Below are positions 5,636 to 50,311 of a stretch of DNA of 64,000 nt, one piece after another. Position 1 is the stretch's first letter; every line of letters starts with the position of its first letter. Below the pieces are notes generated by a model. It did not search any database, had not been told where the DNA came from, and saw nothing but the letters and a program-made list of their open reading frames with translations. Origin of the DNA: Quadrisphaera granulorum. Lineage in GTDB: Bacteria > Actinomycetota > Actinomycetes > Actinomycetales > Quadrisphaeraceae. A program made the translations under genes and the position numbers. Where the stretch lies: positions 1 through 64,000 of the forward strand of contig NZ_QGDQ01000006.1 in the NCBI RefSeq assembly GCF_003149145.1, written 5' to 3'.

Positions 5636-6316
5636 ATGAGCCTTCCTCACCACGACGCCGATCCACCACGTGGATCGAGCGCCGGACCTCCTGCTGACGC
5701 CAGCGCCGACCCCGACATCGCCAGGTTCAACGAGCTGTGGGCGTCGTGCTCCTCGCGGGTGCTGGCCTACGCCACCCGGCACGTCGGCCGTGATGACGCG
5801 CAGGAGGCGCTCGCGGAGACCTTCCTCGTCGCGTGGCGTCGCCTCGCCGACGTGCCCGAGCAGCCGCTGCCGTGGCTGCTCGTTGTCGCCCGCAACACGA
5901 TGGCCAACCAGCGCCGTTCCGCTTACCGCCGCACCGCGCTGCACAGCGAGCTCGCTCACCTGCACGCGTCCGCGGCGCCCGCAGCCGCTGCCGACGTCAC
6001 CGTCGGTCAGCGAGCTGACGTCTTGGCCGTTCTCGCCGCACTCTCTCCCAGCGAGCGCGAGGCGCTGCTGCTCGTCTCGTGGGACGGGCTCAGCGTGCCC
6101 GAGGCCGCTCGCGTCGCGGGCTGCTCGACCTCGGCGATGCACGTCCGTCTCTTCCGCGCCCGCCGTCGCCTGCGGGCCTCCTCCCTTGAGCCGATTGGGG
6201 ACGACGACGAGGGCCGCCCAGCCGTGACCGCTCCGCCCAGGCAGCAACGAGCGACCAACCGCACTCCCGCCACTGCCCCCGCAACCGTCACGACGTCCGC
6301 TAGGAGCCCGCGATGA
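5636..6316 (+). CDS. Sigma-70 family (ECF) RNA polymerase sigma factor
   Basis: 226 residues. Region 2 spans about 25-95 (FNELWASCSSRVLAYATRHV, LAETFLVAWRRL), region 4 about 128-182 (LSPSEREALLLVSWDGLSVP, then CSTSAMHVRLFRARRRL). A Thr/Ala/Pro-rich tail of about 40 residues has no sigma counterpart. ATG 5636 starts about 50 bp after the upstream membrane-protein gene. The end overlaps the next gene by ATGA. Together with the previous pair this makes two sigma/membrane-protein modules back to back. Confidence 0.88.
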   Translation: MSLPHHDADPPRGSSAGPPADASADPDIARFNELWASCSSRVLAYATRHVGRDDAQEALAETFLVAWRRLADVPEQPLPWLLVVARNTMANQRRSAYRRTALHSELAHLHASAAPAAAADVTVGQRADVLAVLAALSPSEREALLLVSWDGLSVPEAARVAGCSTSAMHVRLFRARRRLRASSLEPIGDDDEGRPAVTAPPRQQRATNRTPATAPATVTTSARSPR

Positions 6317-7158
6317 ATCGCCCCGCCAACTCGCAGAACGTCAGCGCTGACCGTCTCGCTGTCTTGGCCTCCCTCCGCCCGGGTTCGGCTACTGACCAGG
6401 GCTGGGATGCGGAGACGCATGATGCGGTGCGCCAGCGCGTCCTGACCGCAGCTCGTTCTGCCGCAGCTCGTCCCGAGGCTGGCCGCACCTCACTGATCAA
6501 CGCTCCTCGTGCCAACGTTCCGCGGAGGAGGGTGGCTCGTCACCGCGGCGTGACAGTCGCCGTCGCCGGAGCCCTGGTGCTCACCGGGGGAGGTGTCGCA
6601 GCAGCGGGCGGCCACCTGCCGCTGGCGTTCACGTCGGCCTTCGCGTCGTGGGCGGAGGACTGGTCCATGAACGGTGTCCACGGCGTTGACTCCGACACCG
6701 CCGAGCGCGTTGCCACCGCGCCCGGTCCGGACGGCACCACCTTCACCGTGATGGCCGCCCCGAGCACCACGCTCGACGGCGCCGACGCCGCGTGCACCGT
6801 CGTCGTCCTCGAACGAGCCGGGAGCCTGCGCAGCGCGGGACCGTCGGAGTTCCTGGACGTCTTGGACTCCGGGTGTGCCCCCGGTCTGCAGGGGCAGCCG
6901 TTCGGCGTCGCGTCCGTGAGCCTCGTGAGGGCCGACGATGCACCGGAGTGGACCAGCCAGGACCTCTACGTCTGGACCGCCGCCGCGGGACACGCCGCCA
7001 CCGCCGAGGTGATCACGGCGGACGGACGCCGGTGGCCGGCGGTGTCGTACGACGGCACGCTCTACGGCTGGATCCCCGCTCCGCGTGAGGGGACCGCACT
7101 CCCACAGCTGATCGGCTACGCCGCCGACGGCTCGGAGGTCGGACGCAGCGACCTGTGA
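6313..7158 (+). CDS. Membrane protein coupled to the second ECF sigma factor
   Basis: 281 residues: a cytoplasmic N-terminus of about 75 residues ending in a basic cluster (PRRRVARHR), one membrane helix (about 78-98, VTVAVAGALVLTGGGVAAAG), and an extracytoplasmic domain of about 180 residues. No zinc anti-sigma motif is visible. The ATGA overlap with the sigma gene implies coupled expression, and the layout is that of an anti-sigma factor or a sigma-controlled surface protein. The sequence is unlike the first membrane partner apart from its layout. Confidence 0.8.
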   Translation: MNRPANSQNVSADRLAVLASLRPGSATDQGWDAETHDAVRQRVLTAARSAAARPEAGRTSLINAPRANVPRRRVARHRGVTVAVAGALVLTGGGVAAAGGHLPLAFTSAFASWAEDWSMNGVHGVDSDTAERVATAPGPDGTTFTVMAAPSTTLDGADAACTVVVLERAGSLRSAGPSEFLDVLDSGCAPGLQGQPFGVASVSLVRADDAPEWTSQDLYVWTAAAGHAATAEVITADGRRWPAVSYDGTLYGWIPAPREGTALPQLIGYAADGSEVGRSDL

Positions 7159-7306
7159 CCTCGCGAGACCTGTCAGTACACGTAGACAGAAGCCCTCAGG
7201 CCGTCGGAGCGCAGCTGCGCCCAGTGTCGGTCTCCGGTGAGGACCGGCTGGCGGTGGGGTCCCTCGTCGGACGTGGTCGGGCGGGGTCCCAGGCGTGGGG
7301 TCAGCA

Positions 7307-7840
7307 TCATGGCTGCTCGACCGCCGTCGTCGGAGTGTCGAAGGTCAGCATCAGCGACGTGGAGTACGCGCCGCCGTGGGCGTCCGTCGCCGCCGTCCTC
7401 TCGACGGGACTGTGCCCGGCGGGCCACGCGGACGTCGCCCGGAAGTCGTAGCCGTCCTGGCGCGCTGCCTCCCACTCCAGCTCCACGCATTGACCGGCGG
7501 TGAGGCTGGCGTACCCCTCGACGAGGACGACGGAGAAGTGCGCCCAGCACCCTCCTGGGGTCTGGGGCGCATCGATGACGCCCCAACCCTCCTCGTCGTG
7601 CCACACGCGAACCACGCCGCTGGCTCTCCCGGCGGGAAGCTGTGGCACCTCGGCCGGCGACAGCGCACGCACAGCGCTGACCAGCTGATCCTTACCGGGA
7701 GGGCTGCCGTCGGCGTTCGCCACGGTCACGGTGCGCTGCTGTCCGTTGACCACCCAGCGCAGCTCGTAGGTCACGGCGTCATCGGGCAGGGCGGACACCG
7801 AGACCTGCAGCCCGTCCACCGTGATCGATCGCTGCTTCAC
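7307..7840 (-). CDS. Cold-shock-domain-like protein with N-terminal extension
   Basis: 177 residues from GTG 7840. Residues about 75-145 (GVVRVWHDEEGWGVIDAPQ, then CWAHFSVV and GQCVELEWE) resemble the beta-barrel of cold-shock proteins, whose canonical first strand reads GTVKWFNxxKGFGFI. The aromatic RNA-binding positions are only partly kept. The first 60 residues form a separate small domain of unknown role. The start is the in-frame GTG nearest the conserved part; the frame remains open far upstream but there overlaps the opposite lipoprotein gene, and no good ribosome site is seen, so the start is uncertain. Nucleic-acid binding is inferred. Confidence 0.7.
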   Translation of the reverse strand: MKQRSITVDGLQVSVSALPDDAVTYELRWVVNGQQRTVTVANADGSPPGKDQLVSAVRALSPAEVPQLPAGRASGVVRVWHDEEGWGVIDAPQTPGGCWAHFSVVLVEGYASLTAGQCVELEWEAARQDGYDFRATSAWPAGHSPVERTAATDAHGGAYSTSLMLTFDTPTTAVEQP

Positions 7841-7958
7841 AGGGGCCAGTGTGATCGGCCAGCGCGCACCAGTGAAGGTCCGGTCCGCGTCATGGTGGGG
7901 GATCGCCGACTGGCAGCGTCGCCTCACGGGAGCGGTGCAGGGGGCGGCGGAGGAGTCG

Positions 7959-9218
7959 ATGATGCGGAAGATCACCGTGGCGCTGGCGGTGGGTGTCCTC
8001 ATGCTCTGCTCGGCGGGTTGCGCCGGTGGAGCCGCGCGCCGGGCCGACAGTGGACCCACCGCCGAAGACTCTGCTGCGGCGGGGCCGGGGAGGTTGGCGC
8101 TCGTCGGGTTCCACACGGGCGATCTCGTCACCGGGGTGATCGTCGTCGACCTCTCCTCCGGCTCGTCCGCACGTGTTGGCGGTGGCCAGGAGGCGTGGTC
8201 TCCGGTGTGGCTCGGCGACGGGCGCCGCCTTGCCATGATTCGTCGCGCTACCCCCGACGCTGTCGGCCAGCTGGTCACCGTCCGGACCAGCCTTCGCGAC
8301 GACATGGAGGGCGACGACGTCAGCGGTGACGGCGCACTCGTGGCCGCCACGTAGCAGGTGCTCGATGCGAGAAGCACGCCCAACGGCCGGCGACTCGTGT
8401 GGATCGGACGCTCAGCAGCAGCCTCGCCGCTCTGCGACGCCCCGCCCCCGCGTGAACCGCTCGGCCTCTACGTCGCGGACGTTGCCGACACCGAGACCCC
8501 GGACGGTACGGGTCTCACCGGCGTGCGACGCGTCGCTGACCTGGCCCCCACCGCGAACCTCGCCGTGCCATCGCCGGACGGGCGCACTGTCGCCGTCGTC
8601 GACCTCGGCGAGAACGCCGGGCCCTGCGACGGCGGCACCGCGCGCCTCGTGCTGTTCGACGTCGCGACGGGCGCCCAGAGCGCCGTTACCGGCCTGACCG
8701 AGCGCATCGGGGTGCCGCACTGGAGCCCGGACGGGCACACCCTTGCGCTCGACGGCGACGACTTCGCCACGGGTCAGACTCGTGACGTGGTGCTCGTTGA
8801 CGTGCCCAGCGCGACCGCCCGGCGCATCGTGACTGCCAGCAGCGTCGAGTCCTCCCCGGTCTTCTCCCCGGACGGACGGCACCTGGCGTTCCTCCGTCAC
8901 GACGACGGCGCACGCGGGCTGGCGAGCGCCTCCATCGTGCTGGCTGATGCCGACTCCGGTCTTGCACGGGTGCTTGCCCTGACGGGTACCGACGACGAGG
9001 ACCTCGTCTGGTCGCGAGACGGTTCCCAGCTCGTGGTGGCCGGTGCCCGCATCGAGCCGACGTGTGACGGGGACGGCGGGAGCAGCGGCGATGACGGTGG
9101 GTGCGACGTCGCGGGCGCTGATCCGGGGGTCCGCACGGTCGATGTCGCCACGGGTGAGCTGCGGTCCCTGTCCGTCACGGCCGCTCTCCTGCAGTCGCAG
9201 CTCACCGTCTCCCCCTGA
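7959..9218 (+). pseudogene. TolB-like beta-propeller lipoprotein gene interrupted by TAG at 8352
   Basis: Two parts lie in one reading frame. The first (7959-8354, ATG after GGAGG) begins with a lipoprotein signal peptide, lipobox SAGC near residue 20, and the first propeller blades. An in-frame TAG at 8352-8354 follows. The second part (to 9218) continues with PD40-type repeats: SPDGRTVAV, SPDGHTLAL, SPDGRHLAF, SRDGSQLVV. Without the TAG it would be one 419-residue surface lipoprotein with a WD40/TolB-like propeller. A sense codon (CAG, GAG or AAG) one base away would restore it. It may be a recent nonsense mutation or a base-call error; a GTG at 8358 could restart the second part, but that would lack an export signal. 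Confidence 0.8.
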
Positions 9219-9377
9219 CGGTGAGGATGTAGGCGAGCCCCGCAGCCACCGGGTCTGACCCGTCTCACGCCCACCGTGGAGCTCCCCACCTCTGCAGCGA
9301 CACTCCACAGGTCCGGGTGCACCCCTCCCTGTCAGTCTGAAGTGAGGCGAAGAGCGGATGCGTCACACAGCAACTGA

Positions 9378-10004
9378 TCATGAATCCGCTCGGCTCCCTG
9401 GACCAGCTTCCGGGGGCGTCAGGTCAAGAAGGTGTTCCACGACCTCGCGTCCGCTGCGGAGCATGTGGTCGTCTCCGTCGATGCCGCGCTGGGACATGCC
9501 GCCCTCGAGCAGCAGGAAGATCTGGCGCGCGGTGGACTCTGCGTCGTCGACGGGGCCACGGCTCCGTCGGAGGAGCTCGGTCAAAAGGTCCAGCACTGCG
9601 CGCTTGTGAGCCCGGATCACGTCCCGAGCGGGATGGTCCTCGGGGAGTTCGCCGGCGGCGTTGATGAAGGCGCAGCCACGATCGGACGGCTCAGCGTCCA
9701 GGGTGTATGAGTCCCATAGTGCGAGGATCGGCGAACCTGGCGCCTGGTTGACGCGTCGTTGCATGCGCTCCCACCAGCGCTGGTGACGTAGCTGCAGGTA
9801 GGCCCGGATCAGTCCGTCCTTGGAGCCGAAGCGGTCGTACAGGGTGCGCTTGGTGACGCCCGACTCTGCCGCGATGGTGTCGACCCCGACTGCGTGCAGG
9901 CCGCCTCGGTAGAACAGGTCCGAAGCGACCTCCAGGATGCGCCGGGCACCGGGGGTGAGCGTGGGCGGGCTCAGCAGGTCGGCGAGTTCCTCAGTCGGCT
10001 CCAC
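9378..10004 (-). CDS. TetR-family transcriptional regulator
   Basis: About 208 residues from GTG 10004 (GGAGG lies 10 bp upstream; GTG 10013 is the alternative). The TetR HTH is near the N-terminus: ILEVASDLFYRGGLHAVGVD, ESGVTKRTLYDRFGSKDGLI. The C-terminal ligand domain is typical in length. The gene is divergent from an MFS exporter, with two palindromic operator copies between them, the classic arrangement for a drug-responsive repressor controlling an efflux pump and itself. Confidence 0.92.
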   Translation of the reverse strand: MEPTEELADLLSPPTLTPGARRILEVASDLFYRGGLHAVGVDTIAAESGVTKRTLYDRFGSKDGLIRAYLQLRHQRWWERMQRRVNQAPGSPILALWDSYTLDAEPSDRGCAFINAAGELPEDHPARDVIRAHKRAVLDLLTELLRRSRGPVDDAESTARQIFLLLEGGMSQRGIDGDDHMLRSGREVVEHLLDLTPPEAGPGSRADS

Positions 10005-10030
10005 AGCCCCCACCCCTCCGGAAACGTGCG

Positions 10031-10085
10031 TTGACTTCACAGACCTGTGCACTCTACTGTCGCGACCAAGTTCACAGATCTGTGA
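10031..10085 (+). promoter_or_regulatory. MFS promoter with two TetR operator copies
   Basis: A TTGACT -35 (10031-10036), 18-bp spacer and TACTGT -10 (10055-10060) point to the MFS gene. The spacer holds the imperfect palindrome TCACAGACCTGTGC (10037-10050). A perfect copy, TCACAGATCTGTGA, lies at 10072-10085. The centres are 35 bp apart. A repressor on the first copy would block RNA polymerase; the second lies just before the GTG start. That the adjacent TetR protein binds here is inferred from position and symmetry. Confidence 0.8.
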
Positions 10086-10098
10086 GATCGGAGCGGTC

Positions 10099-11310
10099 GT
10101 GCTGCAGGACAACCCGACAGGCGCAAACTCGAGCGCGACAGCACACGAACGGGGCCGGGAGCGGCAGATCCTGTGGGCGGGAGCCTTGCTGATCGCTGCG
10201 ACCTACGGGCTCGGGCGCTACGCCTACGGGTTCTTCGTCCCCGTCTTCCGCGTCGAGTTCGACCTGAACACCAACCTCATCGGCATCATCGCCGCAGGCT
10301 CCTACGTCACCTACTGCCTGGCGATCGTGGCCAGCACCGTGCTGACTCCGCGCCTCGGGGCGCGGACGGTGGCCGTGGGCGCCGGATGCCTGGCGACGCT
10401 GGGTCTGGCCATGGTGACCTTCGCCCCCACCGCCGGCGTCGTGGCCGCCGGAGTGCTCATCGCAGGGTCCAGCACCGGTGCCTCCTCGCCCCCGCTGGCC
10501 CAGGCCGTCGCTCACGCCATCGCTGAACGGTCGCGAGACCGGGTCCAGACAGTGATCAACGCCTCGGCCGGCGCGGGCATCGCCGTCATTGGTCCGGTCG
10601 CGTTCCTGACCCAGGAGCACTGGCGGGCCGCGTGGTTCGTCTTCGCTGCCGCATGCGCTGCGGTCACGGTCTACGTCGCCATCGCTCTGGCGGCCTCGAC
10701 AGGTGAGCGGGATGACGCAGCACCGCGACCGGCGCTGCTGCCCCGCCCGCTCCTGCCCTCGGGCAGTGCGCGCCTGATCACTGCCTCCGCGCTCATGGGC
10801 GCAGCCAGCGCCGCCGTCGCAACATTCGGTCGCGACGTGCTGACCAGCATCGGGCGCATGAGCGAGACGAGCTCGACCACGGCGTGGATCCTGCTGGGAG
10901 CCGCTGGTGTGCTGGGGGCTTCGGCTGGTGACCTCACCCGTCGGTGGGGCCTTCGAGCGGCCTGGTCGAGCACGATGGCATTGATGGGGTGCGCGACCGT
11001 CCTGCTGGCGTCCGCACCAGGCATCGACGTCGTGGCGTGGGCTGCCGCTGCCGTGTTCGGCGCGAGCTACATGACCCTCACCGGGCTCCTGCTGATCTGG
11101 GGCACGCAGACGTACTCGCTCAGCCCGGCTGCCGGGGTAGGTCTGGCCTTCCTCGTCATGGCTCTCGGGCAGGCAGCAGCGGCGCCGATCGTCGGCGGAC
11201 TCCTCGCGCGGTACGGCGCGCTCCCGGCCTTCGTGGCCGCGGCCGTCTTGGCCATCGCTGGGGCATTCCTCGGACCCACGAGAGCCACCGACCCCTGTCG
11301 TGCGAGGTAA
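10099..11310 (+). CDS. MFS transporter
   Basis: 403 residues from GTG 10099 with about 12 hydrophobic segments. The N-terminal helix (GALLIAATYGLGRYAYGFFV) and the mid-protein soluble loop (STGERDDAAPRPALLPRP) fit the YbfB-like or DHA branch of the major facilitator superfamily. It likely exports a small molecule sensed by the divergent TetR regulator. The start follows the second operator; upstream codons in the same frame cross the TetR gene and are not used. Confidence 0.88.
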   Translation: MLQDNPTGANSSATAHERGRERQILWAGALLIAATYGLGRYAYGFFVPVFRVEFDLNTNLIGIIAAGSYVTYCLAIVASTVLTPRLGARTVAVGAGCLATLGLAMVTFAPTAGVVAAGVLIAGSSTGASSPPLAQAVAHAIAERSRDRVQTVINASAGAGIAVIGPVAFLTQEHWRAAWFVFAAACAAVTVYVAIALAASTGERDDAAPRPALLPRPLLPSGSARLITASALMGAASAAVATFGRDVLTSIGRMSETSSTTAWILLGAAGVLGASAGDLTRRWGLRAAWSSTMALMGCATVLLASAPGIDVVAWAAAAVFGASYMTLTGLLLIWGTQTYSLSPAAGVGLAFLVMALGQAAAAPIVGGLLARYGALPAFVAAAVLAIAGAFLGPTRATDPCRAR

Positions 11311-15871: not shown

Positions 15872-16990
15872 ATGGAAGAGGACACCCCGCACCCTGTGCG
15901 GGTCGACAGTGACGGAGTGCACGTGCCAGAAGCCGGCCGCACCGCCGACGACGGGCGCCCCCGCGCCCGGGTGCTGGCGTGCCTGGTGCTGGCCGCTGTG
16001 GCCGTGGGGTGCGTCGCGGCCCTCGACCCGACCACGCTGCGTCCCGGCGCGTGGACGCTCGCCTTCATCGCCAGCTTGGTGCTGGGCACCGCTGTCGGCA
16101 CGGCGCTGCTTGCCGTCGCGCGTCGCTGGTCCGGCGCCGCCCTGGCCGCAGTGGTGTGCGGGTTGCAGGGCATCGTCGTGCTGTCGGTGCTGGCCAACCA
16201 GTCGCGCGCCGGTGGTGTACTCAACGTCGTCCTGCTCCTGCCGCTGGCCGTGTACGCCGCCGTCTACCTCTCCCGCCGGCAGTGCCGCGTGGTCATGGCG
16301 GCGCTGGTGGCATGCGTGGGCGTCGTCATGGGGGCGGTGGCGGACGGCGTCCTGCAGTGGATCTCGCTGACGGCGCTCCCGGTGCTGGCCTTTCTCGGCA
16401 CCAGCGAGGTGGTGCTGCGGCTGCGCACGCACCTGGAAGGTGCCCTGGCGTCGCTGGTCGAGCAGGTCGCCACCGACCCTCTGACCGGGCTGCTGAACCG
16501 TCGGGGCCTCGAAAGCCGATTGCCGCGCGCCGCGGACGCCCCCACGGGGTTCCGCTGCGTGCTGATGCTCGACATCGACCACTTCAAAGCCATCAACGAC
16601 AGGTTCGGCCACGAGGTGGGAGACGAGGTGTTCCGCCGCTTCGCCGCGGGGCTGGCGCACGAGACACGTGCGGGAGACCTCGCCGTGCGCCTCGGCGGGG
16701 AGGAGTTCCTCGTGCTGTCCACCACCGCCCCGGACCAGGTGAGCGACTACGCCGAGGCCCTGCGCGCCCGAGCCGCCGAGTGGATGGCCGAGTGGGCGGT
16801 CACGGTGAGCGTCGGAGTCGTCAGTGCCACCGCCGGTGAGGACGGAGTCGCTCGCGGCGACGTGCTGGGGGCGGTGGCCGCCGCCGACGAGTGCCTCTAC
16901 CGCGCCAAGCAGGAAGGCCGGAACCGCACGGTGGTGCGCCCCTGGAACGACGCTCGACCCTCCGACGGAGTCTCGACCTCCGTCGGCTGA
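15872..16990 (+). CDS. GGDEF-domain diguanylate cyclase, membrane-bound
   Basis: 372 residues. Five or six membrane helices occupy about residues 32-175, then a GGDEF domain from about 190 (DPLTGLLNRRGLE, MLDIDHFKAINDRFGHEVGD, LGGEEFLV). The active-site motif is GGEEF, which is usually active, so it probably makes cyclic di-GMP. No RxxD inhibitory site is evident before the motif. The membrane part is probably a sensor. ATG 15872 is used; the ribosome site (GATGG context) is weak. Confidence 0.9.
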   Translation: MEEDTPHPVRVDSDGVHVPEAGRTADDGRPRARVLACLVLAAVAVGCVAALDPTTLRPGAWTLAFIASLVLGTAVGTALLAVARRWSGAALAAVVCGLQGIVVLSVLANQSRAGGVLNVVLLLPLAVYAAVYLSRRQCRVVMAALVACVGVVMGAVADGVLQWISLTALPVLAFLGTSEVVLRLRTHLEGALASLVEQVATDPLTGLLNRRGLESRLPRAADAPTGFRCVLMLDIDHFKAINDRFGHEVGDEVFRRFAAGLAHETRAGDLAVRLGGEEFLVLSTTAPDQVSDYAEALRARAAEWMAEWAVTVSVGVVSATAGEDGVARGDVLGAVAAADECLYRAKQEGRNRTVVRPWNDARPSDGVSTSVG

Positions 16991-17009
16991 GACCCCGGAT
17001 CAGCGTCGG

Positions 17010-18131
17010 TCAGCGCGCCGCGCCGGACCCCGCGCCGGCGCGCTCGACGTCGTCCTCGTCGATCTCTGGGGCAGTCTCAGAGGCAGCCTCCGGGGCAGCG
17101 CGGACGGTCGGCTCCTCGGGCGGGGCGTCCTTGTCGAACGTGGCCGTGACCGTCTCGAAGCCCTTGTACGTCTCGCTGCGCGCGTAGCCGGTGTAGGTGC
17201 GCACGTCCTGCGGGGTGAGGTCGACGTCGTCGGTGAACGGCGTCAGGAGTGCCCGCGGGTACAGCCGCCGCTGGCGGACCACGTTGATCTCGGCGGCGAG
17301 CACGAGCGCCATCGACTGCAGGTACAACCACGCCACCAGACCGAGGACGACGCCGAACACCCCGTACACGTCCCCGGCGTGCTGCAGGTACGCGCCGCCG
17401 AGGCGCGCGAACACCGTCTGCAGCACCTCCCACAGCCCCGCGGCGACCAGCGCGCCGATCAGGACGTTGCGCCACCCCAGGTGCACCGCGGTGAGGACCC
17501 TGAAGATGACGATGAAGATGCCCGTGTTGATCGCGAACGGCACCAGGGTGCCCGCCGCCAGCAGCAGCCCACCGCCCACCGGCACGGCCTGCGCTACCTG
17601 CGGCAGCGCCACGGAGATCGCCGTGGCGACGATGGCGAGCAGGCCCAGCGCCACCATGAGCACGATGCTGCGCAGGCGCGACAGGATCGGGTTGGGCTGC
17701 TTGTACCGCGGCACGGCGTAGATCCGGTTCAGCGCGGCCTGGGTGGCCTGCATGACGCCCATCCCGCCGTAGAGGGTGCCGAGGGCGCCGATCGTCAGCG
17801 CCACGCCGCTGCCACGCAGCCCGGTGATGCTGCCCTGCAGCGCGCTGCCGAGCACGGGCACACCGGCAAGGACGTCGATCGTCGTCGTCACGGCCCGGTT
17901 CGAGAGGTCCGGGTCGGCCCCGGCGAACGGCTGCAGCACGAAGCCCAGCACGGACACCAGGAGCAGCAGCAGCGGGAACACCGAGACGAAGCCGTAGTAC
18001 GCCATGAGCGCCGCCAGGTGCGGACCGCGATCTTCGGCGAACTTGTAGACGACGGCGAGCGGGAACGCGCTGGCCGGGTGGCGCCGTTGGAACGCGTCGA
18101 TGCGATCGATGAGCTTGGGACCGTGGGCCAC
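17010..18131 (-). CDS. YihY/virulence factor BrkB family membrane protein
   Basis: 373 residues from GTG 18131. Features of the family are the early segment HLAALMAYYGFVSVFPLLLL, about six membrane helices, and the region GGAYLQHAGDVYGVFGVVLG. The last 80 residues are soluble and acidic (ending near EIDEDDVERAG). The family is of uncertain transport function despite its old ribonuclease BN name. It ends 19 bp from the convergent GGDEF gene. Confidence 0.92.
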   Translation of the reverse strand: MAHGPKLIDRIDAFQRRHPASAFPLAVVYKFAEDRGPHLAALMAYYGFVSVFPLLLLLVSVLGFVLQPFAGADPDLSNRAVTTTIDVLAGVPVLGSALQGSITGLRGSGVALTIGALGTLYGGMGVMQATQAALNRIYAVPRYKQPNPILSRLRSIVLMVALGLLAIVATAISVALPQVAQAVPVGGGLLLAAGTLVPFAINTGIFIVIFRVLTAVHLGWRNVLIGALVAAGLWEVLQTVFARLGGAYLQHAGDVYGVFGVVLGLVAWLYLQSMALVLAAEINVVRQRRLYPRALLTPFTDDVDLTPQDVRTYTGYARSETYKGFETVTATFDKDAPPEEPTVRAAPEAASETAPEIDEDDVERAGAGSGAAR

Positions 18132-42480: not shown

Positions 42481-42735
42481 ATGACCAGCAAGATCGCCAT
42501 CAGCCTGCCGGATGAGCTTGTGGCCGCAGCCCGTGAGGCTGTAGCCGACGGCCGTGCAGCCAGCGTGTCCGCGCTGGTGGCCCAGGCGCTGCGTGAGCAC
42601 CTCGAGCGGCCCACCCTCACCGACATCGTCGCCGAGATGGTGGCCGAGGTCGGAGAGCCGGACGCGAGCGACCGCGCCTGGGCCGCTGAAGCCCTCCGCG
42701 GAGGAACGCGAAGCCAGGCCGTGGCCGGTGCCTGA
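42481..42735 (+). CDS. Ribbon-helix-helix antitoxin (VapB-like)
   Basis: 84 residues. SKIAISLPDELVAAAREAVA at the start is a ribbon-helix-helix DNA-binding segment; the acidic C-terminal half (DIVAEMVAEVGEPDASDRAW) should wrap the toxin. It overlaps the PIN-domain gene by 8 bp. ATG 42481 follows a -10 box directly, so the mRNA is probably leaderless. Such antitoxins repress their own operon with the toxin. Confidence 0.88.
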   Translation: MTSKIAISLPDELVAAAREAVADGRAASVSALVAQALREHLERPTLTDIVAEMVAEVGEPDASDRAWAAEALRGGTRSQAVAGA

Positions 42736-43099
42736 CGTCGTCCTCGATGCTGGCGCCCTCATCGCGCTCGATCGCGGATCGCGTCGCATGGCCGCTCTCC
42801 TGGACGCCGTGCATCACCGTGAGGGCACCGTCGTCGTGCCGGCCGGCGCGCTCGCCCAGGTCTGGAGGGACGGCGCGCGCCAGGCACGCCTGGGCAGGCT
42901 GCTGCGCAGCATCGCCGTCGTCGTCGATCCCCTGGACGGACAGACGGCCCGCGCAGCGGGGGTGCTGTGCGGAAGGGCAGGTACCTCGGACGTGGTCGAC
43001 GCGAGCGTTGCGCTCGCGGCTGCCCGCAGGGGATGCGCGGTGGTCACGACAGACCCGGAAGACCTGTCACGGCTCGGCGCCGACGTGATCGCCCTCTGA
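42728..43099 (+). CDS. PIN-domain toxin (VapC-like)
   Basis: 123 residues from GTG 42728. Acidic metal ligands of PIN nucleases: Asp7 in VVLDAGALIALD, Asp in GTSDVVDASVALAA and Asp in VVTTDPEDLSRL. It should be a Mg-dependent RNase that targets tRNA or rRNA and is held by the preceding antitoxin. Its end lies 3 bp from the convergent methyltransferase gene. Confidence 0.9.
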   Translation: MPDVVLDAGALIALDRGSRRMAALLDAVHHREGTVVVPAGALAQVWRDGARQARLGRLLRSIAVVVDPLDGQTARAAGVLCGRAGTSDVVDASVALAAARRGCAVVTTDPEDLSRLGADVIAL

Positions 43100-45063: not shown

Positions 45064-45330
45064 TCAGGGGCGGTAGGCGTCGCGGCGGTGCTGCATCCGG
45101 ATGACGCGGACCACGACGCGGTGCTCCTGGATCTCGTAGATGACCCGGTAGTCGCCGCGTCGGGCGCTGCGCAGGCCTTCCACCGAGCCCCTCAGCGGCC
45201 TGCCCACGCGGTGCGGGTTCTCGGCCAGGGGGCCTCGCAGGAACTCCAGTACCGCCGCCGCGACAGCCTCGGGAAGATCGCGTGTGAGGGCTCGTCGTGC
45301 GGAGGGGGAGAGCTCGACCTCATAGCTCAC
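45064..45330 (-). CDS. RelE/ParE-family toxin
   Basis: 88 residues from GTG 45330. The pattern matches small ribosome-dependent RNases: YEVELSPSARRALTRDLPEA, RPLRGSVEGLRSARRGDYRV, IYEIQEHRVVVRVIRMQHRR. The Arg residues in the second half and the final HRRDAY are typical. The start overlaps the antitoxin stop by 4 bp. Confidence 0.93.
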   Translation of the reverse strand: MSYEVELSPSARRALTRDLPEAVAAAVLEFLRGPLAENPHRVGRPLRGSVEGLRSARRGDYRVIYEIQEHRVVVRVIRMQHRRDAYRP

Positions 45331-45605
45331 GAGGGCAGGCGTCCGGCCGCTCGCATCTCGGCCTCGACCTGAGCCAGGGGTACAACGTCGTCGGGGTTCT
45401 CCCGGTAGGCCTTGATCTCAGCCATCGCCTCGGGGTCGCTGAGGATCTCCAGCGTCTCCAGGAGGGACTCGAAGTCCTCCGCGGAGAGCAGGACCGCAGC
45501 GGGGCGGCCGTTGCGCGTGATGTGGATGCGCTCGTGCGTCTCGACCGCCGAGTCGACCAGCTTCGACAGCTGTGCGCGGACCTCGGCGAGCGGCAGCGTG
45601 GTCAT
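45327..45605 (-). CDS. Phd/YefM-family antitoxin
   Basis: 92 residues from ATG 45605. TLPLAEVRAQLSKLVDSAVE, then ITRNGRPAAVLLSAEDFESL is the Phd/YefM DNA-binding part; the acidic C-terminus (DPEAMAEIKAYRENPDDV) neutralises the RelE toxin. It precedes the toxin with a 4-bp overlap. A TAGAAT box ends 7 bp before the start, so its transcript is probably leaderless. Confidence 0.92.
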   Translation of the reverse strand: MTTLPLAEVRAQLSKLVDSAVETHERIHITRNGRPAAVLLSAEDFESLLETLEILSDPEAMAEIKAYRENPDDVVPLAQVEAEMRAAGRLPS

Positions 45606-45642: not shown

Positions 45643-45978
45643 CTATAGCACCACTGCTGCCCATCTTCGACGCGTCAGCCGGTGCTGCCGGGGCCACCCG
45701 GGGCCGGCGGGCAGGGGCTCAGCTGCGGTGGCCCGCAGCTCGGCTTCGACGGCGTCGCCCTCGCCCTGGTCGACGGGGCGCCAGCCGCCGTGCTCGGCGA
45801 TCGCGGTGTGGACGATCTGGTGGTGGCGCTGCATCGCGGTGTTCATCTGCTGCGGGACCTCGGCCCAGCGGCGGGTGCAGCCTTCGACGTCGGTCATCAC
45901 GAGGACGGCGGTGGCCGTCCCGCGCTCTACCGGGGCGTCATCGCACAGGGCAGGGCCACACGGAGAAGTGTGGTCCAC
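45643..45978 (-). pseudogene. Truncated adenylate/guanylate cyclase domain fragment
   Basis: 111 residues. About residues 24-80 (VLVMTDVEGCTRRWAEVPQQ, HHQIVHTAIAEHGGWRPVDQ, GEGDAV) match the first third of a class III cyclase domain (TDIEGST... GDG... in active forms). After GEGDAVEAE the homology stops and the sequence becomes Pro/Arg-rich. Such domains normally head large LuxR-type regulators; the rest is missing. Either a remnant or an odd small protein. It overlaps the palindrome before the Crp gene. Confidence 0.6.
45956..45973. promoter_or_regulatory. 18-bp palindrome just upstream of the Crp/Fnr gene
   Basis: CCACAC-GGAGAA-GTGTGG: perfect 6-bp arms with a 6-bp centre, ending 12 bp before GTG 45986. 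The spacing resembles a Crp-family operator, though the half-site differs from that in the 48.8-kb spacer. Autoregulation is a possibility. Confidence 0.5.
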
Positions 45979-45985
45979 TGCCCCC

Positions 45986-46675
45986 GTGGCGGACGATCAG
46001 CGGTCGCGCTCTGCCGGTTTGGGGGGAACGCAGCTGCTCGCCGGCCTCCCGGACCCGGCGCGCAGCGAGGTGGAGGCAGCCGCACGACGCCGCACCTTCA
46101 GCGACGGGGAGCTCGTCGTACGCCAGGGCGAACCGGCCAGCAGCCTTTTCGTGGTCGAGGCGGGGCGCGTGATGGCGCGACTGGTCTCCGCCGCGGGCGA
46201 CGAGGTGACGCTGTCCGTCTCGGGCCCCGGTGACGTGGTCGGTGAGCTCGGCGTCGTCCTCGAAGGGCAGGTGCGGACGGCGTCGGTGCGAGCCGTCGGC
46301 GACGTGGTTGTCAGGGAGCTGCGCCGCGAAGACCTCGACCGTCTGCGCGCCCGCTTCCCCGCGGTGAGCGACCTGCTCCTGAAGGTGCTCGCGCACCGGG
46401 TCGACACCCTGAGCCGGCGGCTCCTCGAAGCGCACCGCGTGCCCGTGGAGAAGCGGGTCGCCCGGCGGTTGTTCGAGGTGGGCAGGCTCTTCGCCGATGG
46501 GTCTGCGCCGGTGGTGGTGCCACTGACCCAGGAGGACGTCGCCAGCATCGCGGGGACCACCCGCCCGACGGCCAACCAGGTGCTCAAGGCGCTTGAAGCC
46601 GACGGCGTGCTGCGGCTCGCGCGCGGGCGGGTGGAGCTGCTCGACATCCGGGGTCTGCGCGAGCGCTGCCGCTGA
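45986..46675 (+). CDS. Crp/Fnr-family transcriptional regulator
   Basis: 229 residues from GTG 45986. The cyclic-nucleotide-binding fold spans about 15-130 (FSDGELVVRQGEPASSLFVV, GPGDVVGELGVVLEGQVRTA), a dimer helix follows, and the HTH_Crp is near 178-212 (LTQEDVASIAGTTRPTANQV). The phosphate-binding segment reads GELGVVLEGQVRTA; Crp proteins that bind cAMP have GELA...RSA, so the ligand could differ. No cysteine cluster for an iron-sulfur centre. It faces the MFS-cNMP gene tail to tail and may control the divergent promoter at 48.8 kb. Confidence 0.9.
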   Translation: MADDQRSRSAGLGGTQLLAGLPDPARSEVEAAARRRTFSDGELVVRQGEPASSLFVVEAGRVMARLVSAAGDEVTLSVSGPGDVVGELGVVLEGQVRTASVRAVGDVVVRELRREDLDRLRARFPAVSDLLLKVLAHRVDTLSRRLLEAHRVPVEKRVARRLFEVGRLFADGSAPVVVPLTQEDVASIAGTTRPTANQVLKALEADGVLRLARGRVELLDIRGLRERCR

Positions 46676-46702
46676 CCCAGCAGCTGACCCGACAGCTGAG
46701 CC

Positions 46703-48445
46703 TCAGCCGACCCGCGTCTTGAGGGGGCCGGTCGGGTGGGTGCGTCGCAGCCTGGTGGTGGCCAGGAGGCCGACGGCGGTCTCGAGGGCGTCGTCGCCCC
46801 GGACAACCTCGAGCAACAGGTTCCCGGGGAGGCGTAGCAGCGTGCACGGCACCAGCGCGGTCACGGTCGCGGTCCGTGGCCGGGCGTGAAGGAGGCCGAT
46901 CTCACCGAAGCAGCTCTGCGGGCCTAGCTCCGGGACGTCGGGCTCGCCCGGGGTCGTCGCGGTCGTGCTCACTGCCAGCGCACCCTCGACCACCACGAAC
47001 ACGTCGACGGCGGCGTCACCCTCCCGCACCACCACAGCCCCGGCGGCGACGCGCTCCTCCGCTGCCGCCTCAGCGAGCCGTTCCAGCGCCGCCGGACTCG
47101 CTCCGGTGAGAGCGTCGACGCCGGCCAGGATGCGCGTCCGGGGCGCCAGGGCCTCGACCCGTGCCCGTGAAGCCCGGTCGAGCGCAGCCGCCGTCGGGGT
47201 CGCTGCAACAGCGGCCAGGAGCGGAAGCACCGCCACCACCACCAGCGCCCACCGGACTCCGGCCAGCTCCACGACGACCCCGCTGAGCAGGCTGCCGAGC
47301 AGGATGCTGGCGAAGGCCGCCGAGTCGATGAGCCCTGAGGCCCGCCCGAGCAGGCCGGTGGGGAGGTGGCGCTGCAGGAGCGTCACCATGAGGACCTCGG
47401 TGATGAGGTAGGCGCCACCCAGGAGCAGGGCCAAGGCACACCCCACCACGATCCCCGGGGCGACCGCGAGGAGCAGCAGGCAGAGCGCGGAGAGCGCGAC
47501 GCAGGCCACCACCGCTCGGCCCACGGCGGTGCCGGCGGCGATGCGGCTGGCCAGCGGAGCACCGACCAGCCCTCCCGCACCCGCGGCGGCCAGCAGGTAG
47601 CCGGCGCCCGCCGTCCCCGTGCCCAGCAGCTCCAAGGAGACGACGACGAACAGGACGCTGGTGGCGCCGAAGGTGAAACAGGCGGCGATGACAGAGCTGA
47701 CGGCCACGGCGAGGGTGCTGTCGGTCAGGAGCAGCCGGGCGACCCCCGTCGTCGACATCGCCTCGGGAGCCTCCGAAGCCTGGACCTCCTCGTCCGGGGT
47801 GGGAGACGACGACGCGGCGGGCGCAGCCGTCGTCCCCGTCGCCGGTGCGTGGGAGCGGAGGGCCAGCAGGCAGACGAACGCCACCACGAAGGTCGCCGCG
47901 TTGAGGGCGAAGGCTGTGGCCGGTGACCCCAGGAGCAGCAGGACAGCGCCCGCAGCCGGCCCCACGACCACGGCCATCGCCGACAGAGACCCCGTGACGG
48001 CGTTCGCAGCCGCGAGGTCGCGCTCGGGGACCACGGTGGGTACCAGCCCCGCGACGGCCGGCCCCACCACCGTCGACGCTGCGTTGACGGCGGTCGCGAG
48101 GAGGATCACCACGAGCACGGGCGAGCCCGCGGCGGTCGCTACGGCCATCCCGGCGGCGAGCAGCGCCATGACCGCATTGGCCGCCAGGAGCAGCCGGCGG
48201 CGGTCGACCCGCTCGGCGAGCGCGCCCGCGAGCGGAGGGAGGATGACGAGGGGCAGCATCCGAACGACCACGGCGCCGGTGACCCACGCCGCTGAGGCGG
48301 TGCGGTCGAACACCACCGCGGCGAGCGCCACCACGTACAGCAGGTCACCAAGCTCCGAGACGGTGCTCCCGAGGGTGAGCCAGCGGAAGCCGGGATGGGT
48401 GAGCGCGGCCCGGTAGGTGCCGCCTCGACGGGTGGAGCTGGCCAC
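46703..48445 (-). CDS. MFS transporter fused to a C-terminal cyclic-nucleotide-binding domain
   Basis: 580 residues from GTG 48445 (GAGAGGA 4 bp upstream). Twelve helices of an MFS exporter (about 20-420; loop RRLLLAANAVMALLAAG, a Pro/Thr-rich central loop) are followed by a cNMP-binding domain (about 445-560: EERVAAGAVVVREGDAAVDV, GPQSCFGEIGLLHARPRTAT). The FGEIGLL...RTATV segment is close to a working cNMP pocket. Such fusions are known in actinomycetes and suggest ligand-gated efflux. It is downstream of the small peptide gene on the same strand, separated by 97 bp holding a hairpin. Confidence 0.9.
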   Translation of the reverse strand: MASSTRRGGTYRAALTHPGFRWLTLGSTVSELGDLLYVVALAAVVFDRTASAAWVTGAVVVRMLPLVILPPLAGALAERVDRRRLLLAANAVMALLAAGMAVATAAGSPVLVVILLATAVNAASTVVGPAVAGLVPTVVPERDLAAANAVTGSLSAMAVVVGPAAGAVLLLLGSPATAFALNAATFVVAFVCLLALRSHAPATGTTAAPAASSSPTPDEEVQASEAPEAMSTTGVARLLLTDSTLAVAVSSVIAACFTFGATSVLFVVVSLELLGTGTAGAGYLLAAAGAGGLVGAPLASRIAAGTAVGRAVVACVALSALCLLLLAVAPGIVVGCALALLLGGAYLITEVLMVTLLQRHLPTGLLGRASGLIDSAAFASILLGSLLSGVVVELAGVRWALVVVAVLPLLAAVAATPTAAALDRASRARVEALAPRTRILAGVDALTGASPAALERLAEAAAEERVAAGAVVVREGDAAVDVFVVVEGALAVSTTATTPGEPDVPELGPQSCFGEIGLLHARPRTATVTALVPCTLLRLPGNLLLEVVRGDDALETAVGLLATTRLRRTHPTGPLKTRVG

Positions 48446-48486
48446 GGTGTCCTCTCGGGGTCGGAGCGGGGGCTGGGCCAGCGGTC

Positions 48487-48524
48487 GGCGCTGACAGGCT
48501 GCGCCGAGCAGCGCTGTCAGCGCC
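48487..48524 (-). terminator. Attenuator-like hairpin between peptide gene and MFS gene
   Basis: Perfect 11-bp arms GGCGCTGACAG (48487-48497) and CTGTCAGCGCC (48514-48524) with a 16-nt loop, between the peptide stop and the MFS start. It could lower MFS expression relative to the peptide. It also contains the GCTGACAG word found in the 48.8-kb palindrome. Confidence 0.6.
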
Positions 48525-48542
48525 ACGGCGCCGGCAGTCGGG

Positions 48543-48716
48543 TCAGGGGCGCGTGCGGCTCACGACCTCGCTGGTCGGCCACTCGGGGAACGAGTGGCCG
48601 GAGACGTCGTCGTCCTGGTCGTCGTTGACGATGGCGGCGGGGCGGAAGGCGTGGCCGGTGGTGTCGTCCACCTCGGGAGCGAGGTGCTCGGCGCCGGGCT
48701 GCGTGGTGTTCGACAT
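48543..48716 (-). CDS. 57-residue peptide with duplicated DD..GH(A/S)F motif (candidate precursor peptide)
   Basis: ATG 48716 is preceded by AGGAGG at 5 bp, one of the best ribosome sites in the window. The peptide is acidic and has no signal peptide or membrane helix. Two similar blocks occur: DDTTGHAFRP (about 17-26) and DDDVSGHSFPEW (about 35-46), separated by AAIVNDDQ. It has no Cys. A leader-like N-terminus, repeated core blocks, a downstream exporter and a divergent subtilisin gene are features of modified or processed peptides. Function is unknown; a metal-binding or regulatory peptide is the alternative. Confidence 0.75.
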   Translation of the reverse strand: MSNTTQPGAEHLAPEVDDTTGHAFRPAAIVNDDQDDDVSGHSFPEWPTSEVVSRTRP

Positions 48717-48800
48717 GGTGTCCTCCTGGCTGTGCGGCCGCTGCTCCGGTGAGCGGGGCGGTGGAGCGGTACGGCGAGGAGTCTGGAACGGTCCGGCGCG

Positions 48801-48823
48801 GCTGACTGTCAGCCAGCTGACAG
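48801..48823. promoter_or_regulatory. Crp-type palindrome TGTCA-N6-TGACA in divergent spacer
   Basis: GCTGACTGTCAGCCAGCTGACAG holds two overlapping palindromes. The 16-bp core TGTCA-GCCAGC-TGACA (48807-48822) has the 5-6-5 layout of Crp/Fnr operators; CooA uses a similar TGTCA half-site. Another half-site CTGACAG lies at 48837-48843. It sits between the peptide and GAF genes, so one site could control both directions. Binding by the nearby Crp/Fnr protein is inferred. Confidence 0.65.
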
Positions 48824-48879
48824 AGCCTGTGTCGGCTCGCTGACAGACGCCGGTGGCGGACCGCGTGCCAGGATCGGGC

Positions 48880-49518
48880 GTGATCTCGCCCCAGGTGGAT
48901 GGGCCCGGACCAGGGCACGGAGACGACTTCCTCCAGGCCTGCACCGACCTCGGCGTCGCTCTGTTCGGGGCGGTGGCATGTTTGGTGGCCGTCGTGGAAC
49001 CCGACGAGGAGCACCTGGTGTTCCGGGCTGCCAGTGGCCGCGAGACCCAGGGAGTCGTGGGCTTGCGCCTGCCTGTGGGGCGTGGCGTCGCGGGCTGGGT
49101 GGTGTCGTCGGGGCAGGGGATCGCCGTCGAGGACGTCCGCGCTGATCCGCGTTTCGCGCGCGATGTCGCCGAACAGACCGGGTACGTGCCGGCGTCGATC
49201 CTGGCTGCTCCGCTGCCTGCGGCAGCCGGCACCGACGAGGCGCTCGGCGTGGTGGAGGTGCTCGACCGCCGCCGCTCACCGGACCGTGATGACGCGCGCC
49301 TGCTGTCCCTGCTCGCGCGGCAGCTGTCGCTGGGCCTGCAGCTCGAGCAGGCGGCGGACGACGAACGGCAGCTGGCCGCCTCGCCCGCTGCCGCCGCGCT
49401 GGCGGAGCTGTCCGCTGTCGCCGGCCCCGAGTCCTCCGAGGCGCGGCTGGCAGCCACCCTCGTGCTCGGACTGCGCGACCTCGCACAGGAGCGGCGTGGA
49501 CGTCCCGGCCTGGGCTGA
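48880..49518 (+). CDS. GAF-domain protein
   Basis: About 212 residues from GTG 48880 (AGGA 6 bp upstream; GTG 48853 in frame). One GAF domain covers about 15-160: FLQACTDLGVALFGAVACLV, GLRLPVGRGVAGWVVSSGQG, ARDVAEQTGYVPASILAAPL. The C-terminal helix (LARQLSLGLQLEQAADDERQ) may dimerise. It carries no output domain, so it would act on a partner; its stop lies inside the subtilisin gene (23-bp overlap), making coupling likely. Ligand unknown. Confidence 0.88.
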   Translation: MISPQVDGPGPGHGDDFLQACTDLGVALFGAVACLVAVVEPDEEHLVFRAASGRETQGVVGLRLPVGRGVAGWVVSSGQGIAVEDVRADPRFARDVAEQTGYVPASILAAPLPAAAGTDEALGVVEVLDRRRSPDRDDARLLSLLARQLSLGLQLEQAADDERQLAASPAAAALAELSAVAGPESSEARLAATLVLGLRDLAQERRGRPGLG

Positions 49519-50311
49519 GGCCTTCGCCCCGGACCGCCTCGGAACCGTCGACCCGCTGCCGCTGCCGCAGCGGATCACCTCGGAGTGGGCCTTCGGCGAC
49601 GGCTCGGGGCGCGGCGTGAAGGTGGCGATCATCGACAGCGGCGTCGACGCCCGCCACCCGGCGGTCGGCTCGGTGGCCGGCGGCGTCGTCCTCGAACACG
49701 ACCCGGAAGCCCTCGACGGTGTACGGGTGGTCGAGGGGCCCCATGAGGACCTCTTCGGCCACGGCACGGCGTGCGCGGGGATCGTGCGCTCCCTTGCCCC
49801 CGAGTGCCAGATCTACAGCGTGCGGGTGCTCGGGCAGCGCCTCACGGGCAAGGGCGTCGTGTTCGCCGCGGGTATCCGCTGGGCCGCTCGCCACGGGATG
49901 CACGTGGCGAACCTCAGCCTCAGCTCGGCCCGCCAGGACCTCTACGGCCTGTTCCACAGCGTCTCCGACGAGGCCGCCTTCGCCGGGCTCTCGCTGGTGT
50001 GCGCGGCGAACAACTCACCGGGCCCCAGCTACCCGTCGCTGTTCTCTTCCGTGCTGTCGGTCGCCTGCCTACCCGCCGGCTCTACCGGGTTCGCCTACAA
50101 CCCTGCGCCGCCGGTGGAGTTCGGGGCGCCCGGCATCGATGTCGACGTCGCCTGGCTCGACGGCGCCCGGATCACCTCCACGGGCAACAGCTACGCGGCC
50201 CCGCACATCACCGGGCTCGTGGCCCGGGTGCTCGGCGCCCACCCGGGACTGCGGCCGTTCCAGGTCAAGACCGTGCTGCAGGCCGTCGCCGACAACGCGC
50301 GCCGCCCCTGA
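49496..50311 (+). CDS. Cytoplasmic subtilisin-like (S8) serine protease
   Basis: 271 residues from GTG 49496 (AGGAG 4 bp upstream). The catalytic triad is complete: Asp47 in VAIIDSGVD, His89 in DLFGHGTACAG and Ser232 in TGNSYAAPHITG, with oxyanion Asn172 in CAANNSPGPSYPS. There is no signal peptide and no pro-domain, unlike secreted subtilases, so it should act inside the cell as a processing enzyme. The GNS serine block in place of GTS is seen in some peptide-maturation subtilases. It is coupled to the GAF gene and divergent from the GH(A/S)F peptide gene, its most obvious candidate substrate. Its 3' end overlaps the convergent GlxA-type gene by 243 bp. Confidence 0.88.
   Translation: MDVPAWAEAFAPDRLGTVDPLPLPQRITSEWAFGDGSGRGVKVAIIDSGVDARHPAVGSVAGGVVLEHDPEALDGVRVVEGPHEDLFGHGTACAGIVRSLAPECQIYSVRVLGQRLTGKGVVFAAGIRWAARHGMHVANLSLSSARQDLYGLFHSVSDEAAFAGLSLVCAANNSPGPSYPSLFSSVLSVACLPAGSTGFAYNPAPPVEFGAPGIDVDVAWLDGARITSTGNSYAAPHITGLVARVLGAHPGLRPFQVKTVLQAVADNARRP

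Follow-up and report, generated by a model that had tools for sequence, protein, structure and literature searches.

A candidate nucleotide-regulated peptide-maturation and export cassette with a GAF-paired subtilisin in Quadrisphaera granulorum

The locus

The window that we analysed comprises the first 64,000 nucleotides of contig NZ_QGDQ01000006.1 of the actinomycete Quadrisphaera granulorum (assembly GCF_003149145.1). It carries a cassette of five genes built around a 57-residue acidic peptide. We propose, with a probability of roughly two in three, that this cassette is a nucleotide-regulated system for peptide maturation and export, in which a cytoplasmic subtilisin paired with a GAF-domain protein would cut the peptide at repeated motifs. 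All five open reading frames (ORFs) of the initial annotation were found at or near the positions given there, and Pfam recovers the domains that it named. In the features listed below, cNMP stands for cyclic nucleotide monophosphate, MFS for major facilitator superfamily and HTH for helix-turn-helix.

45986–46675, plus strand: Crp/Fnr-type regulator with a cNMP-binding domain and a Crp HTH (Pfam PF00027, 2e-19; PF13545, HTH_Crp_2, 2e-15)
46703–48445, minus strand: MFS exporter with a C-terminal cNMP-binding domain, GTG start (Pfam MFS_1, 5e-28; MFS_3, 2e-27; cNMP_binding, 2.5e-17)
48487–48524, minus strand: RNA hairpin separating the stop codon of the peptide gene from the start of the MFS gene, with 11-nt perfect arms
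48543–48716, minus strand: 57-aa precursor-like peptide ORF with the motifs DDTTGH (48651–48668) and DDVSGH (48594–48611)
48722–48727, minus strand: ribosome-binding site of the peptide gene, AGGAGG, 5 bases ahead of the ATG
48807–48822, no strand assigned: Crp-format operator 1, TGTCAGCCAGCTGACA, at −106 from the peptide start
48830–48845, no strand assigned: Crp-format operator 2, TGTCGGCTCGCTGACA, 23 bp from operator 1
48880–49518, plus strand: GAF-domain protein, the gene overlapping the protease gene (Pfam GAF_2, 4e-14)
49496–50311, plus strand: subtilisin-like (S8) protease, putatively cytoplasmic (Pfam Peptidase_S8, 2e-24)
45643–45978, minus strand: probable remnant of the N-terminus of a class III nucleotide cyclase, of uncertain belonging (46-residue match to a protein of the related locus L056)

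The ribosome-binding site of the peptide gene is a perfect AGGAGG, which bears out the strong site annotated initially. The start codon of the protease lies within the GAF gene, and the two genes overlap by 23 bases. Around the hairpin, the 76-nt stretch 48470–48545 folds with a minimum free energy of −46.6 kcal/mol (z −4.49; 0 of 200 shuffles were as stable). The hairpin is a possible attenuator, processing site or terminator, and could be a means of making the precursor in excess over its exporter.

The protease had been described as retaining its catalytic residues while lacking a signal peptide and pro-domain, and both points hold. D47, H89, N173 and S232 are invariant in a 23-row alignment, and the protein begins 46 residues before the catalytic Asp, which leaves no space for a signal and pro-domain. 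From the lack of a signal, its location is probably cytoplasmic. An AlphaFold model shows a confident subtilisin fold (pLDDT 92.4), and its best Foldseek matches are subtilisin BPN' variants. We rejected assignment to the mycosins (TIGR03921), for which the protease scores 89 bits against a cut-off of 279.

Conservation of the gene set

Searching genomes of the Genome Taxonomy Database (GTDB) with the protease yielded 21 loci (L015–L035). Two more came from relatives, as longer stretches (L036 and L037), one from a plasmid of Miltoncostaea oceani (L079, NZ_CP064357.1), and at least 10 from 396 genomes of the phylum (own genome included) after four unrelated subtilases had been removed. In total, 34 loci from Actinomycetota and Chloroflexota were examined, counting the window. 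Left out of the counts were L018, which is identical in genome and coordinates to L017; L013 and L014, which are shorter forms of L036 and L037; L076, the weaker of two matches in genome G045 (E 1e-33); and L063–L066, which match the S8 profile at about 30% identity and are ordinary secreted-type subtilases. The gene-set profiles were built partly from the counted loci, and many contigs are short, so that absences are weak.

A GAF protein stands beside the protease in 33 of the 34 loci; the exception is L019, where the contig starts at the protease, and in L020 the two are fused. Exporters fused to a cNMP domain were found by profile search in 15 loci: 13 are MFS-cNMP proteins (window included), and two are ATP-binding cassette (ABC) exporters, in L054 and in L034, where the domain falls below the Pfam cut-off. 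Nineteen loci contain other ORFs with a cNMP domain, most of them Crp-like (only as fragments in L035), and 24 contain a cNMP-domain ORF of any sort. Class III cyclases were recognized in 12 loci with our own profile, and Pfam confirms those of L017, L020, L028, L056 and L061. Eight loci (L020, L023, L025–L027 and L029–L031) carry the peptide gene immediately after the protease gene. A conserved neighbourhood had been set beforehand as a test, and it was found: across several genera and two phyla, motif-bearing peptides have homologues of the protease, cNMP-exporter and Crp genes as neighbours.

A family of motif-bearing peptides

Motif peptides could be assigned in 24 of the 34 loci. In 17 of these, the region near the protease holds small acidic ORFs that carry between one and nine repeats of [DE]D[VT]E[GA]H or of a motif close to it, with nine in the Naasia locus L017; the conserved element is D-x-x-G-H. 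Variant motifs occur in L053 (EGQ) and in L079 (ETEAH/ETQAH), single-motif peptides with a longer N-terminus in the Chloroflexota loci L021 and L022, and aroma-sacti-type peptides with EVQAH in L037, L061 and L062. The repeats of L079 lie in two annotated hypothetical proteins (1096–1653, plus strand; 16885–17193, minus strand) that share the C-terminus SDVRLKxxIRAV and a region with S8, GAF, cyclase and MFS-cNMP genes. In the window peptide, the initial annotation had picked out two GH(A/S)F blocks. Their GH part is conserved as D-x-x-G-H, and the residues after the His (A/S-F) vary across the family.

The initial annotation knew of no named family for this set, and we found none for the peptide. 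It has no NCBIfam match, and its best Pfam match is at chance level (E 0.18, below the cut-off). Ten relatives likewise match nothing in NCBIfam and exceed the cut-off of no Pfam model, and scans of the D-x-x-G-H, EGQ and single-motif peptides found no matching NCBIfam model and no Pfam model reaching its cut-off. BLAST with the window peptide against 149 genomes (own genome included) returned 10 weak matches besides itself; four that we inspected (L003, L004, L005 and L010) were chance matches, in other frames or proteins. A motif-profile search recovered at least two further peptides, L070 in genome G344 and L071 in genome G374; both have paired operators and adjoin large cyclase/ATPase genes.

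We counted ORFs of up to 260 aa that have at least two motifs and a Shine-Dalgarno-like site. Twelve, from 11 loci, lie within 4.5 kb of the protease (33 loci, 274 kb), compared with one in 252 kb elsewhere, and this lone distant ORF sits inside the gene cluster of L016 itself. Because motif ORFs are concentrated near the protease in this way, the peptide is more than a chance reading frame. A spurious ORF in a chance neighbourhood of ordinary genes would fit two results within the genus, namely that the five other genomes searched have no S8 match at E ≤ 1e-20 and that the only peptide match (G005, E 0.08) falls by chance on a different protein. The conservation of motif peptides and operator in independent genomes already contradicts this explanation, which we regard as scarcely credible.

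Across 66 motif copies in 20 peptides, positions P6 to P1 carry 1.6, 2.2, 2.7, 2.3, 2.7 and 4.2 bits of information and positions P1' to P3' carry 0.85, 1.19 and 1.12 bits; the copies were chosen by a pattern that fixes the His and permits G or A ahead of it and any of five residues at P4, and these columns are therefore partly conserved by construction. Subtilisin specificity resides mainly on the non-prime side, and the stronger conservation at P6 to P1 thus fits cutting by a subtilisin. The peptide could instead be a detached inhibitor or folding aid of a pro-domain-less subtilisin, a propeptide acting in trans whose motifs are inhibitory loops and not cut sites. The missing pro-domain and the closeness of peptide and protease genes in many loci agree with such a role. 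We nevertheless consider it unlikely, because the number of motifs ranges from one to nine in otherwise divergent sequences, as expected of serial substrates, and because the set includes a cNMP-fused exporter in 15 of the 34 loci, two genomes have peptides with no S8 homologue found, and the motif precedes a short C-terminal tail in the aroma-sacti relatives.

A shared Crp-format operator and its probable regulator

Two copies of a Crp-format box, TGTC[AG]N6[TC]GACA, lie in the divergent promoter ahead of the window peptide gene. Among 31 peptide upstream regions of 250 bp each (window included), 10 contain the exact box and 16 contain it within one mismatch. The background, 418 kb of the same loci, holds 2 exact and 20 one-mismatch boxes, and both exact ones precede MFS-cNMP genes. 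Boxes are positioned at −87 to −130 from the peptide start, except in L022 (−187), and pairs spaced 23–24 bp apart recur in L053, L070 and L071. When the box was defined from the window and the window was then left out, 4 of 32 regions had an exact copy, compared with a single copy over 373 kb, and none of the 32 contained any of five control boxes. The 16-mer of operator 1 is the only copy within one mismatch in the genome.

The recognition helix of the window regulator, GTTRPTANQ, resembles those of other box-bearing loci, which have the form G[GAT][TAS]R[PQ][ST][VA]N[QA]; the helices of L021 and L022 differ. Similar helices are also present in L015 and L028, where there is a peptide and no box, and in L024 and L054, so the type is not exclusive to box-bearing loci. 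A Crp-like gene is present in 13 of 15 box-bearing loci compared with 4 of 12 others (Fisher p 0.007, from hand counts of loci that are not independent). Many of the loci are related, among them those of Nocardioides (L023–L027 and L030), and p-values overstate their independence. L022, with its box only at −187, was counted as box-less, as was L079, whose three one-mismatch sites precede neither peptide gene. A regulator with a Crp HTH and boxes of the form TGTxx-N6-xxACA at the promoter thus occur together, and we infer from these sequences that a Crp/Fnr protein would control the peptide gene through the predicted operators.

A probable nucleotide signal

The initial annotation had suggested control by a nucleotide or redox signal. 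We favour the nucleotide, on account of the operator, the cyclases in 12 of 34 loci and the GAF domain, and rate redox control low. The GAF profile (alignment A4) has its best match in the Protein Data Bank to the GAF domain of the adenylate cyclase CyaB2 (1ykd, 8e-32) and also matches PDE2, PDE5 and PDE10; as these nearest solved relatives are GAF domains of cyclic-nucleotide enzymes, they favour a nucleotide signal. NKFDE is the signature of cyclic-nucleotide-binding GAF domains. In alignment A4, viewed by eye, only D129 is invariant near the expected place of this signature, and the rest is degenerate.

The Q. granulorum genome (G000) has one match to class III cyclases, on another contig (C35) and beside a second MFS-cNMP gene. 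In this region (L080), the two genes, at 5733–8837 (minus strand) and 9216–10886 (plus strand), are divergent; we noticed no motif peptide nearby, and the 19 kb covered contained no operator within one mismatch. Next to the cassette, the ORF at 45643–45978 matches the cyclase/ATPase of L056 over 46 residues (39% identity, E 1e-10, in a single comparison) and matches no Pfam model at E ≤ 0.01. Originally, a cyclase may thus have been part of the cassette itself. This remnant ends by the start of the Crp gene and beside a toxin–antitoxin-like pair. Two such pairs, named by eye as RelE/Phd-like and CopG/PIN-like, lie near the cassette at 45064–45605 (minus strand) and 42481–43099 (plus strand), and they suggest a mobile neighbourhood.

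Cyclases and cNMP-binding proteins are also found in Pycsar-type anti-phage modules, in which a cyclase would be joined by a cNMP-binding effector and a protease effector. PADLOC models give weak matches to the Crp protein (PycTIR, 4e-13; PycC, 5e-10), a subtilase model matches the protease (2e-20), and PycC reaches 5e-20 with the two neighbouring cyclases that were scanned. Among the six proteins scanned, the matches are limited to the cNMP, cyclase and subtilase domains, and the required combination of PycC with PycTIR or PycTM is absent. A defence module would also leave unexplained the exporter, the DNA-binding regulator with its matching operator and the precursor-like peptides, and we judge it highly improbable.

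Neighbourhoods of ribosomal peptides

In three distant loci (L037, L061 and L062), the S8-GAF pair occurs with a cyclase/ATPase, a radical S-adenosylmethionine (SAM) gene and a precursor of the aroma-sacti type. The L037 precursor (P0006) matches NF045560 (aroma_sacti_dom) with 81.8 bits, for a cut-off of 30; by BLAST, those of L061 and L062 share 64% and 55% identity with it, the match to the model itself having been checked for L037 only. All three end in EVQAH followed by nine residues (VTVAGAGLF, GEIAGGALF and SEIAGGALF, respectively). L034 contains three Cys-rich small ORFs on the plus strand (9944–10252, 10302–10595 and 10616–10924) in which EVEAF or EVETF directly precedes the Cys region. 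They adjoin the GAF-S8 pair and a radical SAM/SPASM protein that resembles TIGR04463 (8e-87, below cut-off). EVEAF/EVETF is an F-type variant of the motif, situated where leader and core are likely to meet. A 53-aa ORF of L061 (2504–2665, minus strand) carries EVEAHSVLDLQE and a Cys-containing tail; it appears lanthipeptide-like by eye and has no NCBIfam match. The motif may be a wider leader element. In L015 and L016, from two metagenome-assembled genomes of Nocardioidaceae, ORFs that by eye resemble TldD/PmbA-type peptidases adjoin the cluster to the left of the Crp gene. Some ribosomally synthesized and post-translationally modified peptides (RiPPs) are trimmed by TldD/E proteins.

The S8-GAF pair stands beside several types of precursor and thus accompanies ribosomal peptides repeatedly. 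As most of these precursors have the motif in common, it may be what the shared proteins recognize. Judged as a RiPP cluster, the set has a short precursor gene in a conserved cluster (24 of 34 loci) and an exporter (the MFS-cNMP protein of the window and the cNMP-fused exporters of the other loci), and we recognized no tailoring enzyme in the window cassette. Radical SAM genes were found only in L034, L037, L061 and L062, using a profile built from those four.

Several known systems resemble parts of the cassette. QhpE of the operon for quinohemoprotein amine dehydrogenase (qhp), as described in PMC7876137, is a cytoplasmic subtilisin-like protease; it cuts a peptide encoded in its own operon, which a transporter then exports. 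The QhpE model NF049966 is the best NCBIfam match of the window protease (3e-27), which likewise lacks a signal and pro-domain and keeps its catalytic residues. The protease scores 95.4 bits, however, where the cut-off is 165; neither a QhpC-like substrate nor a QhpD-like radical SAM gene was recognized in the cassette; and the GAF partner, the cNMP exporter and the repeated motifs do not feature in the passages on qhp that were consulted (PMC7876137). The aroma-sacti loci share with the cassette the S8-GAF pair with cyclase/ATPase and the motif, here EVQAH, before a nine-residue tail, whereas the window peptide has no NF045560 match, no radical SAM gene was called nearby, and no operator was detected ahead of the aroma-sacti genes.

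The cyanobactin proteases PatA and PatG are also subtilisins, and their multi-core precursor is cut at recognition sequences that recur along it. Unlike in that system, the window protease reaches 15.5 bits against the 421 required by TIGR03895, and no heterocyclase or macrocyclase was recognized in the cassette. Small ORFs near GAF-S8 genes in L079 (E 5e-6) and L035 (E 1e-3) resemble Frankia_peptide (PF14407), although neither reaches the gathering cut-off and the window peptide does not match this family. HetC (PMC10986499) has been proposed to export a peptide, and its fused cNMP-type domain is needed for function and binds ppGpp. It differs in being an ABC exporter with its own C39 peptidase, whereas the window has an MFS protein and a separate S8 protease.

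Weighing the interpretation

The reading as a processed-peptide system, put forward initially, draws support from the conserved neighbourhood, the operator, the cyclases and the aroma-sacti-type loci. A number of observations weigh against it. The motif is not wholly one-sided, as P2' and P3' prefer R/K, although this signal is smaller. Ten loci (L019, L024, L034, L035, L054–L058 and L060) have no assigned peptide with an H- or Q-type motif. Contig ends cut two of these (L019 and L055), two have F-type variants (EVEAF/EVETF in L034 and DDTQGF in L056), and L035 has another precursor-like ORF; a looser scan for single motifs in the remaining five (L024, L054, L057, L058 and L060) found nothing convincing. 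The cassette is sporadic: of 149 genomes searched, its own among them, 3 have an S8 homologue at E ≤ 1e-20. The number of boxes within the window alone is unremarkable (2 within one mismatch, 1.04 expected, and 31 of 100 shuffles reach 2), so that the evidence for the operator is comparative. No box was detected ahead of the aroma-sacti genes (L037, L061 and L062) or the peptide genes of L015, L017, L021, L028, L029, L056, L059 and L079. cNMP-type domains can bind other ligands, as that of HetC does with ppGpp (PMC10986499). By eye, no tailoring enzyme recurs beside the D-x-x-G-H peptides, which are thus perhaps not RiPPs in the strict sense.

The protease is conserved beside motif peptides across the loci, yet genomes G344 (94% complete) and G374 (81% complete) carry a motif peptide, operator and cyclase and no S8 homologue at E ≤ 1e-30. 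The protease is therefore not obligatory: in L070 and L071, the link between peptide, operator and cyclase holds and the link to the protease does not. A different protease may serve these peptides. The same two loci favour a signalling role for GAF-S8 within a cyclic-nucleotide circuit, where it would cut a regulator, cyclase or exporter, and the peptides would be co-regulated non-substrates, for example acidic, His-rich, secreted peptides that bind metals. The presence of GAF-S8 without an assigned peptide in L024, L054, L057, L058 and L060 points the same way. We think this improbable, given that in the aroma-sacti loci this pair is found together with RiPP-type precursors bearing EVQAH and that the peptide gene directly follows the protease gene in the eight loci named above.

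Proposed system

The gene set and its conservation, the motif, the operator, the GAF-S8 fusion and the RiPP-type neighbourhoods come directly from computation; from them we infer the identity of the ligand, regulator binding, cleavage and its position, export and the function of the products. In the processed-peptide system that we propose, the Crp/Fnr-like regulator would be charged with a nucleotide, most simply cAMP from a class III cyclase encoded elsewhere in the genome. It would then bind the paired boxes at about −106 and −129 and activate the peptide gene as well as, by way of the divergent promoter, the GAF and S8 genes. The GAF protein would hold or gate the protease in the cytoplasm. 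The protease would cut the precursor at [DE]D[VT]x[GA]H, most likely directly after the His, with the motif occupying P6 to P1. One short peptide would be freed per motif, and the predicted products of the window peptide are residues 23–41 and 42–57. The MFS transporter would export them, its fused cNMP domain reading the same signal.

A more far-reaching version is that one nucleotide signal controls transcription, GAF-gated proteolysis after every D-V-E-G-H and export by MFS or ABC proteins, releasing up to nine different unmodified peptides per precursor in the manner of a prohormone. We offer it tentatively and consider it rather doubtful. Processed ribosomal peptides are already known; a possible threefold nucleotide control and apparent lack of tailoring enzymes could go beyond them. 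Among the open-licence papers that our searches listed, judged by title and the start of the abstract, we found no description of the gene set, the motif or aroma-sacti. The NHLP/Nif11 paper (PMC2887384) contains neither the term cyclic nucleotide nor subtilisin, and a review of leader proteases (PMC10885120) contains neither GAF nor cyclic nucleotide.

The scheme predicts a cut after the His of D-x-x-G-H, and motif repeats, operator and GAF-S8 together provide a handle for genome mining. In the GAF-subtilisin, the cell would possess an intracellular protease that can be switched allosterically, and the S8-GAF pair may be the leader-removing enzyme of aroma-sacti clusters. If secreted, the peptides would be candidate signals or antimicrobials. 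If the proposal is correct, these loci would encode a family of ribosomal peptides, unnamed in the libraries searched, that has its own protease, exporter and regulator, spans two phyla and is tied to nucleotide signalling.

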